DNA from: Anaerolineales bacterium
Lineage (GTDB): Bacteria; Chloroflexota; Anaerolineae; Anaerolineales; Villigracilaceae
Assembly: GCA_016934715.1 (NCBI GenBank)
Contig: JAFGSI010000004.1
Span: forward strand, 62,001 to 126,000
Length of the DNA stretch: 64,000 nucleotides
Direction: 5' to 3'
Part shown: piece after piece, positions 56,796 to 63,274 of the stretch
Numbering within the stretch: position 1 is the stretch's first letter
How the letters are laid out: every line of letters begins with the position of its first letter
Made by a program: the position numbers and the translations under genes
The notes under the pieces: generated by a model
Seen by the model: the letters and a program-made list of their open reading frames with translations, nothing else
Told to the model about the DNA's origin: nothing
The model's database searches: none

Positions 56796-58019
56796 CTATC
56801 GTTCTTCGATGGTCACGCTCAGGATGGCGTCCTCGGGCGGCTGGTAGGGGCCCCCGGGCTGCGGGTCGCGAGCGTTCATCCCGGCCAGCAGGTCCAGGCC
56901 GGCCAGCACCTCTCCGAAGATCGGGTACAGGCTGTCCAGCTGGGGGGCCGGGGCGAGGGTGATGAAGAACTGGCTGCCTCCCGTTCCGGGTCCGGCGTTG
57001 ACCATTGCCACCTGGCCGGGGCGGTCAAAGCGCAGCAGCGGGCTGATCTCGTCGGGGATGAAGTAGCCGGGATTGCCCATCCCTGACCCCGACGGGTCGC
57101 CGGTCTGGACCAGCAGGCCGGGCAGAACCCGGTGGAAGGGCACGTCATTATACCAGCCGCTGCGGGCCAGGAAAACGAAGTTGGCAACCGTGGTGGGGAC
57201 CTTGTCGACAAACAACTGGATGACCACCTCGCCGCGCGTGGTCTGCAGCCGCGCCAGGTACTGGCGCAGCGGGTCGACGCTCATCGGCGGGCAGGCGCTG
57301 AGGCGGCGCGGCTGCAGCAGGCTCAACCCGACCATCGCCTCCAGGCTGGCGTAGTCGATCAGCCCGGTGTAGGGGGCGGTGCTGTTGATGAACAGCAGCG
57401 GCAGCGACGGCGACTGGACCCCGGCGGCGAACTGGACCGCCGCCTCGACCCTGGCAGCGACCGTCTCGCCGGCCAGGTCGGATTCGAAGCGGGCCGGGTC
57501 CAGGCCCAACCCGGCGGCCGCCTCCACCAGCCAGCGGTGAAAGGCCTCCGGCTCCAGCCCGGTCCATTCGTTCTGGCGGGCGTAGAGCAGGTCGTGCATC
57601 TCCCAGAAATGGTCCTGCAGGTCGGCGGCTTCGGCCGCCCCGACGGCCAGGGCCGACTTGTCGAAGGCTGCCGGGACGGGGAAGTGGCGGTAGACCAGGC
57701 GGACCTGCTCGGGGTGGGTACTGCGGAGGACCTGCAGTTCGATGGCCAGCACGGCGCAGCCCAGGCACTGGTAATCACCGAAGGCCAGGATGGTGACGGG
57801 GGCCTCCGCCGGGCCGTCGGCGTGGTCGTCAGGGTTGATCGTGGCCGCCAGGGGGACCGGGTCGGTCACCGGCGGGTTGATCACCGTGCAGGGCAGGCTG
57901 GTGTGCAGGGCGTCGCGGGGGGTCGCCAGGGGGGCCTCCGTTTGCGGGGTCGGCGTGGCGGTCCCGCAGGCGGCCAGCAGCAGCAGCAGCAGGGGGGCGT
58001 TTTTGCGCATCCGGGTCAC
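56796..58019 (-). CDS. Secreted lipoprotein fusing a DsbA-like thioredoxin domain to a cyclophilin
   Basis: 407 residues. The signal ends in the lipobox LAAC. Residues about 60-240 form a DsbA/thioredoxin fold with the redox pair CLGC in FGDYQCLGCAVL and YRHFPVP. Residues about 250-405 form a cyclophilin peptidyl-prolyl isomerase: FVFLARSGWYNDVPFHRVLPGLLVQTGDP and GSQFFITLAPAPQLD. One protein can therefore both oxidise or shuffle disulfides and isomerise prolines outside the membrane. Start is GTG 58019, overlapping the previous stop (GTGA); ATG 58010 is the alternative. It sits between a HExxH protein and PrsW. Confidence 0.88.
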   Translation of the reverse strand: MTRMRKNAPLLLLLLAACGTATPTPQTEAPLATPRDALHTSLPCTVINPPVTDPVPLAATINPDDHADGPAEAPVTILAFGDYQCLGCAVLAIELQVLRSTHPEQVRLVYRHFPVPAAFDKSALAVGAAEAADLQDHFWEMHDLLYARQNEWTGLEPEAFHRWLVEAAAGLGLDPARFESDLAGETVAARVEAAVQFAAGVQSPSLPLLFINSTAPYTGLIDYASLEAMVGLSLLQPRRLSACPPMSVDPLRQYLARLQTTRGEVVIQLFVDKVPTTVANFVFLARSGWYNDVPFHRVLPGLLVQTGDPSGSGMGNPGYFIPDEISPLLRFDRPGQVAMVNAGPGTGGSQFFITLAPAPQLDSLYPIFGEVLAGLDLLAGMNARDPQPGGPYQPPEDAILSVTIEER

Positions 58020-59290
58020 CGGGCCAGGACCGCCTGCAGATCGTCGAAGGAATCCATGGCGGCGATGGTCTTGAGGAAATCGGTCAGCGAATCCGACTGC
58101 TCGCGCAGGACCCGCACCGCCGGTCCGACCGGGTCCTCGCCGGCCGCCCCGCCCGGGTAGGAGGCGTAGGCGCCGTGGAAGGCGAAGTAGGCCTGGTTGA
58201 GCCTGCGGATCGGGTAGCCGTGCTCCCAGAAGACCAGGCGGCGGGCCTCCATGTAGGCCTCGGCCTCGGCGATCCGGCCCTCGGCCAGCAGGCTGTCGAC
58301 GCGCACGCGGGTCAGGTACATCTGGGCCCGGAAGTCGAACGGCGGGCGGGGGGCACCCTCCGGCCAGCGCGGGCTGGAGGGCAGGCTGGTCTGGGCCAGC
58401 GAGTCGTAGGCAGCCAGCAGCTCGGGGTAGTAGCGCCCCAGGAGCAGCCGGGCGATCTCGCTCCCGGCGATCGAGGCGGTCGTCTCGTTCATGGTGCGCA
58501 GTTCGGGGGTCGTATTGTAGTTGGCGCCCAGCGGGCGCAGGGTCAGCCAGTTGTGGATCCACTCGTGGGCGATGACCTCGGCCAGCCAGCTGAGCGAGGT
58601 GGTGCGCATGATCATCGTCGGGTAGGAACCCAGCCCACCGATCGGCACGACCAGCGACGAGACGTCGAGGGCTGAGTCGATCTGGGCCTCAATGGACGCC
58701 TGGCGGTCGACGGTCAGGTCGGGGTCAAGCGAGACGGCCAGCTCCTGCTGGATGCGCTCGCGCGGCGAAACGACCAGGTGGTAGGGCAGCGGGCTGATGT
58801 GGAACAGGACCGGTGGGATCGGCTGGCCGCCGAGGGTCAGTTCCAGGTCGGCCAGCAGCGTGCTGACCTGCTGTTCGAGGATCGCCTCGGCCAGCGGGGC
58901 CAGCTGGGCCTGGCGGGCGTAGAGCCCGTCCAGGTCGGACCGCAGGTCGCGGGAGGCGCTCTCGGGGTCGGCTACGGCTGGATCGGAGTAGACCAGGCCG
59001 AGGCTGTACTCGTTTGCCAGGATCTGGTCGATCAACTGCAGGTAGTCGACCACGATCCGGTGGCGGGAGTCCTCGGCGAAGTAGAAGGGCGTGCCGAGAG
59101 CGGCCTGGCCCAGTTTGCCGGCGAAGGCTTCCATCGTCCAGGTCGGGTAGTCGAATTCGACCGCCCGGGTGAAAACCCGCACCTGATCCCTGAGCTCGGT
59201 CGGGGGCAGGGGAGCCGCGCCGCCCAGCAGGGTCAGCAACAGGAGCAGGGCCAGGAGGGCTTCGTACAGGCGCCGCAGGTGGGTGGACAT
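58016..59290 (-). CDS. Exported HExxH zinc-protease-like protein
   Basis: 424 residues with an N-terminal signal or anchor (ALLALLLLLTLLGG). Residues about 238-250 read EVIAHEWIHNWL, an HExxH zinc site, and ELRTMNETTASIAG lies about 20 residues further on, where a gluzincin places its third ligand Glu. Beyond that I recognise no family. The start codon lies six bases after a TATAAT box, with no ribosome site, so it is probably translated from a leaderless message. It heads the minus-strand group running down to the kinase. Confidence 0.8.
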   Translation of the reverse strand: MSTHLRRLYEALLALLLLLTLLGGAAPLPPTELRDQVRVFTRAVEFDYPTWTMEAFAGKLGQAALGTPFYFAEDSRHRIVVDYLQLIDQILANEYSLGLVYSDPAVADPESASRDLRSDLDGLYARQAQLAPLAEAILEQQVSTLLADLELTLGGQPIPPVLFHISPLPYHLVVSPRERIQQELAVSLDPDLTVDRQASIEAQIDSALDVSSLVVPIGGLGSYPTMIMRTTSLSWLAEVIAHEWIHNWLTLRPLGANYNTTPELRTMNETTASIAGSEIARLLLGRYYPELLAAYDSLAQTSLPSSPRWPEGAPRPPFDFRAQMYLTRVRVDSLLAEGRIAEAEAYMEARRLVFWEHGYPIRRLNQAYFAFHGAYASYPGGAAGEDPVGPAVRVLREQSDSLTDFLKTIAAMDSFDDLQAVLAR

Positions 59291-59491: not shown

Positions 59492-62400
59492 ATGAAGACG
59501 ATGAACCGTTGGCTCTCGGGGGGGATGATTTTTGTCCTTGTGGTTGGCCTGGCTTTCGTTCCAGGAGGAAGTGTCCAGGCGGCGGGCACGATCAGCCTGG
59601 CGACGCTGGGAGCCGCCTACGCCCAGGATTTCGATACCCTGGCGATCACGGGGACGGCGAATGCCATCGACGACCTGAACAATGGCTGGTATCTGACCGA
59701 GACCGGGGGCGGCGCCAGGGACAATGAATTGTATGCTGCCGGCACTGGTTCAAGCAATACCGGTGACACCTACAGTTTTGGCGCATCCGGGAACACCGAA
59801 CGTGCCCTGGGCGGGCTTCTCAGCGGCACTCTGAATCCCGTCTTCGGTGCCAGTTTCACCAACAACACCGGGGCGACGATCACCTCGCTGGATGTGGCCT
59901 ACACCGGCGAGATGTGGCGCCTGGGAACTGCCGACCGCACGGACCGCATCGACTTCCAGTGGAGCGCCAATGCCACCAGCCTGACGAGCGGCGCCTGGAC
60001 CGACTTTGACTCGCTGGACTTCAGCACGCCCGACAGCAGCGGGGTGGTGGGGGCCAGGAACGGGAACAGCGCTGCTTACCAGACCGCGATCAGTGCTACC
60101 ATCAGCGGGTTGAGCATCGCCAGCGGGGCCACCTTCTGGATCCGCTGGACCGATACCAACGCATCCGGCGCCGACGATGGCCTGGCGGTCGACGCTTTTT
60201 CCCTTACCCCGCAGAGCAGCGGTGTGGTCACTCTCTCGATCGATGATGTCTCGGCGAACGAGGGGGATGGCGGCTCGACGACCTTTGCCTTTTCGGTCAG
60301 CCTGTCCTCGCCCGCCCCGGCCGGGGGGGTGACCTTCGATCTTGCCACCCAGGACAACACCGCCCAGGCACCCGCTGACTACAGCGCTGTTTCCCTGACC
60401 GGCCAGGCCATCCCGGCCGGGAGCTCGACCTATGCCTTCCACGTCACCGTCCTCGGTGACACGACCTACGAGAACGACGAAACGTTTTTCGTCAACGTCA
60501 CCAACGTGGTCGGGGCGAATCCCGCCGACGCCCAGGGCCTGGGCACGATCCTCAATGATGACGTGGTCCCGATCCACGCGGTCCAGGGCGGCGGGCATCT
60601 CTCGCCCCTGGTGGGCAACGTGGTGACCATCGAAGGCATCGTCACTGCCCTGCGCACGGCCGGCTCGACGCGCGGGCTCTATGTCCAGGAACGGGATGCT
60701 GCCGTGGACGCCGACCCGGCCACCTCCGAGGGCATCTTTGTCTTCACCGGCTCTACTTCCAACCCGGCCCTCCTGGCCGCGGTCGGGGACCGGGTGCGGG
60801 TGACCGGCGCGGTGTCGGAATACCGTTCGGGGGGCGGCGCGAGCGCCAGCCTGACGTTGACCGAACTGGTCTCGCCGACCGTGGTCGTGCTTTCGAGCGG
60901 CAATCCCCTGCCGGCGGCGACCGTGATCGGCGCCGGCGGGCGCCTGCCCCCGCAGGCCGTCATCGATGACGACGCCACCGGCAGCGTCGAGCTCAGCGGG
61001 ACCTTCGACCCGGCCTCTGATGGCATCGACTTCTATGAAAGCCTGGAAGGGATGCTGGTGCAGGTCAACCATGCGGTCGTTGTCGGCCGCTATACGGACT
61101 TCAGCAGCAACCATGAGATCGCGGTGATCGGTGACAACGGCGCCTCGGCCGGTCTGCGCACGGGCCGCGGCGGGGTGGTGATCGGCGATTCTTACGCGGA
61201 TTTTAACCCCGAGCGCATCCTCCTCAACGACTGGATCGCCGGCGGGCCGACCCTCCCGGCCGTCGACGTGGGGGATGCCTTCCCCGGCGCCATCATCGGC
61301 GTGATCGATTACAGTTTTAACAACTTCAAGCTGCAGGTCATCAGCATGCCAGGCCCCGTCGATGGTGGGCTGGCCCGCGAAGTGGCGGCCGCTCCAGGCC
61401 CCGACGAGCTTTCCGTGGCCACCTTCAACGTTGAGAACCTGGCGCCGACCGACCCGGCCTCCAAATTCGCCACCCTGGCGGACCTGATCGTCAATCACCT
61501 GCAGTCGCCCGACATCCTGGTGGTCGAGGAGGTCCAGGACAACAACGGCACGCTCAATGACGCCATCGTGGCCGCCGATCTCACCTGGGCGACGCTGATT
61601 GCCGCCATCCAGGCCGCCGGCGGACCGACCTACGAATACCGCCAGATCGACCCGGTCGATGACCAGGATGGTGGCGCGCCGGGAGGGAATATCCGGGTTG
61701 GCTTCCTGTTCCGCACCGATCGGGGCCTGGCCTTTGTCGACCGGCCCGGGGCGGGGTCGACGACGGCGAACGCCGTCGTCGCCGGGGCGAGCGGGCCCGC
61801 ACTGCTCTTCAGCCCGGGCCGCATCCACCCGACCAGTACGGCTTTCGATGCCAGCCGCAAGCCGCTGGCCGCGGAGTTCACCTTCCGCGGCCAGACGCTC
61901 TTCGTCATCGCCAACCACTTCAATTCCAAGGGCGGCGACGACCCGCTCTACGGCCGCTATCAGCCGCCCGTGCTGTATTCCGAGACCCAGCGCCTCCTGC
62001 AGGCGGCCGAGGTGCGGGCCTTCGTCCAGGACATCCTGGCGCTCGACCCGAATGCCTATGTGATCGTGGCCGGCGACCTGAACGATTTTCCGTTCTCTCC
62101 CCCGCTGACCCTGCTCGAGAGCGCGCCGCTGCACACCCTGATCGAGACCCTGCCGGCCGCGGAACAGTACACCTACGTATACGAGGGCAACTCGCAGGCG
62201 CTCGATCACACCCTGTTGAGCGCTGCGCTCTTCGCCTTGCCTTTCGAATACGACGTGGTCCACGTCAATTCGGAGTTCGCCGTTCAGGCCAGTGACCACG
62301 AACCACAGGTGACCCGCATCCGCCTGGATACGGCGCCCACCATTCTGTTCGGCGCCAATACCGTCCCGGCCAACGGTGCGGTCCTGACGGCCGGCCCGAC

Positions 62401-63274
62401 CCAGATCACGGTCGAGTTCAGCAAGGATGTTCAGGCGGGGGGTGGGCCGGACGCGGCCGATGCGGTTGTCAATTACCTCCTGGTCGCCGAAGCCCCGCGG
62501 GTCGGATTCCAGACCTCCTCCTGCGCGGTCGGCATGGGGGTGGGCGACAGCGGGATCGCGATCCAGAGCGCGAGCTACGCCGGCGGCGGGGCGGGTCCGT
62601 TCATCGCCACCCTGAACATCAACAATGGCATCCCGCTCCCGGCCGGGAACTACCTCCTGCTGGTCTGCGGGACGACCTCGGTCCGTGACCTGTTCGGCAG
62701 CCCGCTCAACGGCGGGGCCGACTCCGCCATACCCTTCCGAGTCTCGGCCGGCGCGGCAGGCGACGCCGGTGTTCTTCCGGCGACCGGCTTCGCCCCGGGG
62801 GTGGTCACCACTTTGCCTGAGCAGTCCCTGGCCTACGCGACGAGCGACCTGCGGCTGGAGATCCCGCGCCTGGGGCTGGAGATGGACATCGTCGGGGTGC
62901 CGCAGGTGAACGGTGGGTGGGACGTGACCTGGCTGAACCGGGATGCCGGCTGGCTGCAGGGGACGGCCTTCCCGACCTGGGCGGGCAACTCGGTGATCAC
63001 CGGGCACGTCTGGGACGCCTGGAACCAGCCGGGTCCGTTCGTGGACCTGCACACGCTGTGGTACGGCGACCGGGTGGTGATCCACGCCTGGGGCCAGGAG
63101 TACGTCTACGCGGTGCGCTCGGTGCGCCAGGTGCAGCCGGGCGACACGGCCGCCATCACCCGCCATGAAGACTATCCCTGGCTGACGCTGGTCACCTGCA
63201 AGGGGTTTGACCCGGCCAGCAATTCCTACCGCTACCGGGTGGTGGTCCGGGCGGTACAGGTGGAGATCCGCTGA
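59492..63274 (+). CDS. Secreted nuclease with internal LPATG motif and C-terminal sortase domain
   Basis: 1260 residues. Signal peptide to about 31 (VQAAG). A beta-sandwich follows (35-245), then a Calx-beta domain (247-355, with ENDETFFVNV), an OB-fold/lamin-like part (360-490) and an ExeM/NucH-type endonuclease-phosphatase domain (about 635-940) with FNVEN, the catalytic Glu in VVEEVQD, GDLNDFP and the SDH motif. A Big5-like domain reaches about 1080. LPATG is at 1095-1099. Directly after it comes a sortase fold: catalytic His 1172 (ITGHVW), Cys 1236 (TLVTCKGF) and Arg at 1247-1253. There is no C-terminal membrane helix. It degrades extracellular nucleic acid; the sortase probably acts on the protein's own LPATG. 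Confidence 0.88.
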   Translation: MKTMNRWLSGGMIFVLVVGLAFVPGGSVQAAGTISLATLGAAYAQDFDTLAITGTANAIDDLNNGWYLTETGGGARDNELYAAGTGSSNTGDTYSFGASGNTERALGGLLSGTLNPVFGASFTNNTGATITSLDVAYTGEMWRLGTADRTDRIDFQWSANATSLTSGAWTDFDSLDFSTPDSSGVVGARNGNSAAYQTAISATISGLSIASGATFWIRWTDTNASGADDGLAVDAFSLTPQSSGVVTLSIDDVSANEGDGGSTTFAFSVSLSSPAPAGGVTFDLATQDNTAQAPADYSAVSLTGQAIPAGSSTYAFHVTVLGDTTYENDETFFVNVTNVVGANPADAQGLGTILNDDVVPIHAVQGGGHLSPLVGNVVTIEGIVTALRTAGSTRGLYVQERDAAVDADPATSEGIFVFTGSTSNPALLAAVGDRVRVTGAVSEYRSGGGASASLTLTELVSPTVVVLSSGNPLPAATVIGAGGRLPPQAVIDDDATGSVELSGTFDPASDGIDFYESLEGMLVQVNHAVVVGRYTDFSSNHEIAVIGDNGASAGLRTGRGGVVIGDSYADFNPERILLNDWIAGGPTLPAVDVGDAFPGAIIGVIDYSFNNFKLQVISMPGPVDGGLAREVAAAPGPDELSVATFNVENLAPTDPASKFATLADLIVNHLQSPDILVVEEVQDNNGTLNDAIVAADLTWATLIAAIQAAGGPTYEYRQIDPVDDQDGGAPGGNIRVGFLFRTDRGLAFVDRPGAGSTTANAVVAGASGPALLFSPGRIHPTSTAFDASRKPLAAEFTFRGQTLFVIANHFNSKGGDDPLYGRYQPPVLYSETQRLLQAAEVRAFVQDILALDPNAYVIVAGDLNDFPFSPPLTLLESAPLHTLIETLPAAEQYTYVYEGNSQALDHTLLSAALFALPFEYDVVHVNSEFAVQASDHEPQVTRIRLDTAPTILFGANTVPANGAVLTAGPTQITVEFSKDVQAGGGPDAADAVVNYLLVAEAPRVGFQTSSCAVGMGVGDSGIAIQSASYAGGGAGPFIATLNINNGIPLPAGNYLLLVCGTTSVRDLFGSPLNGGADSAIPFRVSAGAAGDAGVLPATGFAPGVVTTLPEQSLAYATSDLRLEIPRLGLEMDIVGVPQVNGGWDVTWLNRDAGWLQGTAFPTWAGNSVITGHVWDAWNQPGPFVDLHTLWYGDRVVIHAWGQEYVYAVRSVRQVQPGDTAAITRHEDYPWLTLVTCKGFDPASNSYRYRVVVRAVQVEIR

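Follow-up and report, generated by a model that had tools for sequence, protein, structure and literature searches.

The last ~166 residues of a nuclease encoded by an Anaerolineales bacterium are a portable C-terminal module, in which an LPxTGF motif and a linker of ~27 residues lead into a class-C-like sortase. Anaerolineales are common, hard-to-culture, filamentous bacteria, and known sortases turn over many times and are shared between separate substrates. Many surface proteins of the order that are otherwise unrelated terminate in this two-part tail, so bacteria that carry it probably use disposable, built-in anchoring and not the usual shared sortase. Neither sortases nor LPxTG signals are new, and self-cleaving fusions have been engineered. 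A search of an open-access library found no description of a natural cargo-LPxTGF-sortase fusion, of which a sequence-only reading of this DNA knew no characterised example, although such an absence is weak evidence. If true, a natural and widespread cis sortase would bring a new logic of surface attachment, an entry to envelope decoration in Anaerolineales and a source of ready-made self-ligating tags.

Layout of the sortase-tailed nuclease

The analysed stretch of DNA (the window) comprises 64,000 nt of contig JAFGSI010000004.1 (positions 62,001 to 126,000, forward strand) in assembly GCA_016934715.1 of an Anaerolineales bacterium (Chloroflexota; Villigracilaceae). An open reading frame at 59492..63274 on the + strand, stop included, encodes 1260 aa and has a GGGGAGG ribosome-binding site just upstream of its ATG; all features of the protein given below are on this strand. 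By its sequence, the N-terminus is signal-peptide-like (MKTMNRWLSGGMIFVLVVGLAFVPGGSVQA, residues 1-31, 59492..59584), and a Calx-beta domain is found at residues 243-340 (60218..60511; Pfam PF03160, E 6.7e-10). An ExeM/NucH-like extracellular nuclease region at residues 380-928 (60629..62275) is indicated by NF033681, PF03372 and active-site motifs. The NCBIfam ExeM/NucH model NF033681 is covered at 509 of 546 positions but scores below its cut-off (146.7 vs 300 bits), while the EEP catalytic domain (643-936; PF03372, E 2.6e-12, above cut-off) lies mostly within the region and the EEP-type motifs are intact (FNVEN 645, EEVQ 679, NHFNS 808, GDLND 861 and SDHEP 934). Residues ~945-1085 (62324..62746) have no Pfam match and are a putative Ig-like (Big_5-type) spacer, judged from a similar stretch (YRLLVCGTTSI.DL.GN.LN.G..) found upstream of the module in several other copies. 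On the - strand of the window, 56796-58562 encodes a lipoprotein-like protein in which a DsbA-like thioredoxin (CLGC) and a cyclophilin prolyl isomerase are joined, the upstream end of this frame overlapping the next gene, and 58016-59290 encodes a secreted-looking protein of 424 aa with a metallopeptidase-like HEWIHN and no Pfam match.

The module begins with LPATGF (residues 1095-1100, 62774..62791), assigned as the sorting motif from its conservation in 101 copies and with an expected scissile bond T1098-G1099; LPATG is the sole LPxTG-like pentapeptide of the 1260-aa protein. An alignment of the copies delimits the linker (residues 1101-1121, 62792..62854), with conserved AP, T1106, L1108 and Y1115. 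The sortase domain (residues 1122-1256, 62855..63259) is supported by Pfam PF04203 (sortase superfamily, peptidase C60; E 5.7e-22, 78.2 bits vs a curated cut-off of 26.6), AF2 and Foldseek, and contains the catalytic His1172 (63005..63007), Cys1236 in TLVTC (63197..63199) and Arg1249 (63236..63238). The chain stops at the last strand of the sortase, and no hydrophobic segment is found within or behind the module. The sequence-only reading, which placed a nuclease, LPATG at 1095-1099 and a sortase with His, Cys and Arg in one chain, with neither a hydrophobic tail nor a membrane helix on the sortase, was thus correct in coordinates, strand, residue numbers and the missing membrane segments. As in a classical LPXTG sorting signal (Gram_pos_anchor, PF00746), the motif lies near the C-terminus of a secreted protein, and adhesin-like proteins and nucleases carry both kinds of tail. 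However, the module has a whole sortase in place of the hydrophobic stretch and basic tail, and the F after LPxTG is fixed.

YhcR of Bacillus subtilis is also a nuclease. Displayed at the surface, it bears a sorting motif for the sortase YhcS (PMC3222306), but YhcR and YhcS are two separate genes and the tail is classical, whereas the window protein is a single chain. ExeM of Shewanella oneidensis, from the same nuclease family, likewise has a C-terminal processing signal, in this case a GlyGly-CTERM tail, for which a putative rhombosortase would act in trans (PMC6085458), in contrast to LPxTGF and an own sortase in the window protein. Hence, C-terminal processing appears to be common for this type of cargo.

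Distribution, cargos and conservation

With the last 167 residues as query, strong full-length matches from LPATG onward occur within the GTDB family and order to which the window belongs. For most other sortases of the phylum, the alignment starts only at about query residue 24, behind the motif. Matches at E<=1e-20 are present in 161 of 251 Anaerolineales genomes; by our reading of the match table, roughly 125 of these have the true module and the others have weaker sortases. The order-wide search finds four copies in the window's own genome, and several per genome are seen in a set of 21 genomes. The named module-bearing assemblies are nearly all Anaerolineales MAGs (Chloroflexota), and one Herpetosiphon-labelled and one Acidithiobacillus-labelled assembly are probably misassigned bins. 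A chimera or annotation error is ruled out as the source of the fusion, given that the same architecture recurs in assemblies of many independent studies.

Complete module proteins range from ~520 to ~3790 aa, two entries of <400 aa probably being broken frames, and a sortase family search of the 21 genomes finds open frames as long as 3798 aa that have a sortase at the C-terminus. By hydropathy only, 51 of 61 complete module proteins have an N-terminal hydrophobic segment, while for the module 3 of 103 proteins show any hydrophobic segment. The cargos are unrelated to each other (DUF11, SdrD_B, SpaA, GramPos_pilinBB, subtilases, beta-helices, beta-propellers, Ig folds and Ice_binding) and mostly adhesin-like, with domains typical of surface proteins; an EEP nuclease is the cargo in two module proteins. 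Isopeptide-bond domains are reported to include the SpaA and DUF7933 families (PMC12617251). The enzyme-substrate fusion first noted here is therefore real but not peculiar to one nuclease, which is one of many cargos of a widespread tail.

Such cargos also bear on an unlikely reading in which the sortase of one protein cuts the LPxTGF of another and links subunits into pilus-like polymers, with the fusion only guaranteeing stoichiometry. The many pilin-like and adhesin-like cargos (SpaA, SdrD_B, GramPos_pilinBB, DUF11), the several copies in one genome and the nearest solved relatives, which are class C pilin polymerases, would all suit this between-molecule action. A nuclease, however, would be an odd fibre subunit, and both the fixed length of the linker and a joint loss of LPxT and the catalytic Arg beside an intact neighbour (both below) speak against it, the latter being easier to explain in cis.

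The motif recurs at this position in ~120 other copies, far exceeding chance occurrence. Conservation was scored on 121 distinct copies, of which 101 are <80% identical (non-redundant); three copies that a frameshift check found degraded or broken (L198, L047 and L049) were left out of the evidence. Among the 101 copies, the motif columns are L in 80% (I in 9%), P in 98%, a variable x, T in 95% (S in 3%), G in 98% and F in 98%, followed by A (81%), P (91%), T1106 (90%) and Y1115 (95%), while the ten positions upstream of L1095 are gap-rich and unconserved. The catalytic His and Cys are present in 101/101 and Arg in 99/101, with Trp in a clade without LPxT, and the G1099-P1125 spacing is 25-28 residues in 95/101. 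The sequence-only reading had made its case depend on LPATG being kept among homologues. It is not refuted on this count, since conservation of the motif equals that of the catalytic triad, although the conserved form is LPxTGF, F included, and not the LPATG originally proposed as sorting motif. One genome (G474) holds diverged copies that share 29-38% identity with other copies, the window's included, and still have LPxTGF, and in a 22-sequence alignment that spans both groups only 18 residues are invariant, among them P, T, G, F, His, Cys and Arg. A coevolution scan of motif against sortase columns gave no significant pair. One copy, L089, has SVATGF, with LP lost and the triad retained, and GF.P is still conserved in copies without LPxT, so part of the conservation around the motif is structural.

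Fold, ancestry and candidate substrates

The AF2 model of the sortase domain has a pLDDT of 90.6, and its best Foldseek PDB matches are class C sortases at a TM of about 0.6-0.7. The nearest relatives in fold and sequence, Actinomyces oris SrtC-1 (2xwg) and Clostridium perfringens SrtC (7d6t), share with the module the His/Cys/Arg and an N-terminal segment before the first strand. However, a class C sortase is a standalone enzyme of the membrane with other proteins as its substrates, whereas the module lacks a membrane segment and has its motif in the same chain. The NCBIfam class C model NF033745 reaches 47.4 bits against a cut-off of 160, and the class D, E, F and GN models are likewise below cut-off. 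Hence, the domain is filed only as class-C-like.

In the window copy the LPATG block has a pLDDT of 79, the following block 82 and the stretch after those 64; in a diverged copy the N-terminal blocks reach 86, 91 and 94. By these values, the LPATG segment would have an ordered position against the sortase domain, although it could be ordered yet lie outside the active site. In class C sortases, N-terminal lids plug the active site. LPATGF might by analogy be a lid, or pseudosubstrate, that controls an enzyme with its real substrates elsewhere, and the class C likeness, the order in the AF2 models and the retention of GFAP even in copies without LPxT all point that way. We consider this improbable, as a lid has no need of a T-G motif, yet few positions are as conserved as T and G, and no matching trans substrate was found. 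The pattern PxTGFAP gave 67 matches in 41 genomes, 37 of them inside modules; 29 of the 30 others were inspected and are short or unlikely frames, with no plausible secreted gene and no anchor tail.

In a FastTree phylogeny of sortase domains (midpoint root), all 53 motif-bearing tips fall inside one 57-tip clade (support 0.84), and the motif-bearing sortases therefore have one origin. The four tips without the motif in this clade are L089 and three orthologues (L086, L096 and L101) in which LPxT is replaced by GG[FL]G and the catalytic Arg by Trp, while GFAP, His and Cys are kept. The adjacent paralogue in each of these genomes has both LPxT and Arg intact. This is suggestive of substrate and enzyme having decayed together, in what counts as one evolutionary event.

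At least one sortase match is found in 21/21 genomes, most of which have a standalone sortase of ~300 aa, and this would suit a reading in which the module is a recognition or retention domain only and cleavage of LPxTG falls to a standalone membrane sortase of the same genome. That reading is very improbable, given that the catalytic triad is conserved across ~120 copies, the catalytic Arg is lost only where LPxT is lost, and the standalone sortases pair with a different motif. Classical pairs in the same order and genus consist of a [LI]PxTG[AVG] substrate with a TM segment and RR beside a standalone membrane sortase (L178-L184); the substrates of these loci carry LPxTG or IPVTG with the TM-RR tail. 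Two separate sorting systems, differing in the residue after the motif, thus coexist in the order. Gram_pos_anchor has few matches in 21 relatives, mostly below cut-off, and none above cut-off in the window's own genome, where a degenerate LPxTG DNA pattern matches as often as its reversed control.

Proposed cis sorting and related systems

We regard it as fairly probable that the module sorts in cis, its own sortase cleaving LPxT-G and handing the cargo to an acceptor; here we infer cleavage, cis action, transfer, acceptor and single use. Self-sorting is the best fit to the single clade, the lack of PxTGFAP outside sortase proteins and the co-loss of motif and Arg. The module would stand in for the usual hydrophobic cell-wall sorting signal. 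After export by the signal peptide, the class-C-like sortase would fold once outside the membrane, its own LPxTGF packing as a segment on the domain. In sortase chemistry, attack of the Cys on T-G yields a thioester with the cargo. Cys1236 would thus attack T1098-G1099 in cis, and the thioester would be resolved by an acceptor amine, either of the envelope or of a neighbouring subunit (candidates are peptidoglycan, a surface layer or another subunit), leaving the cargo covalently attached. The sortase, now starting GFAPG, would stay behind, so that each would be used only once. Reversal would presumably be easy until the acceptor amine arrives, because the leaving amine (GFAP...) remains tethered to the enzyme, although a fixed GFAP docking site could keep it away. 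That surface display throughout Anaerolineales works in this way, each substrate bringing a single-use sortase that is consumed stoichiometrically as proteins self-anchor or self-ligate, we would put narrowly on the probable side.

The predicted order of the LPxTG block, the fixed linker length and the intact triad count in favour of cis sorting, as does, by analogy, the self-cleavage of an engineered sortase-LPETG fusion (BISOP; PMC2901362); further engineered self-cleaving fusions are described (PMC10334657, PMC10726597). These also combine a sortase and its own LPxTG in one chain, but they are man-made for purification, and the BISOP order is sortase-LPETG-cargo whereas that of the module is cargo-LPxTG-sortase. 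Counting against cis sorting are that the module has no membrane anchor to keep a slow reaction at the surface, that the co-loss is a single event, that L089 keeps its triad beside SVATGF, that part of the conservation, as GF.P shows, is structural and that the coevolution scan was null.

The same lack of a membrane segment in module and tail would fit a self-cleaving release tail, in which hydrolysis of the acyl-enzyme sets the cargo free in the medium, where a secreted nuclease would act in solution. We think this improbable, since the cargos are mostly adhesin-like and release needs no cleavage when nothing holds the precursor in the membrane.

Other sortase-tailed arrangements also occur. 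Clusters of ~7 sortase-tailed proteins each, without LPxTGF, are found on two contigs (L203-L227; G327 contig C134 and G350 contig C221), and some of these proteins have IPNTGS or IPITGS ~82 residues upstream of the sortase domain. At one locus (L182, G019:C29), the motif unit LPSTGFRHGEVTQLPKQPA is tandemly duplicated upstream of the sortase.
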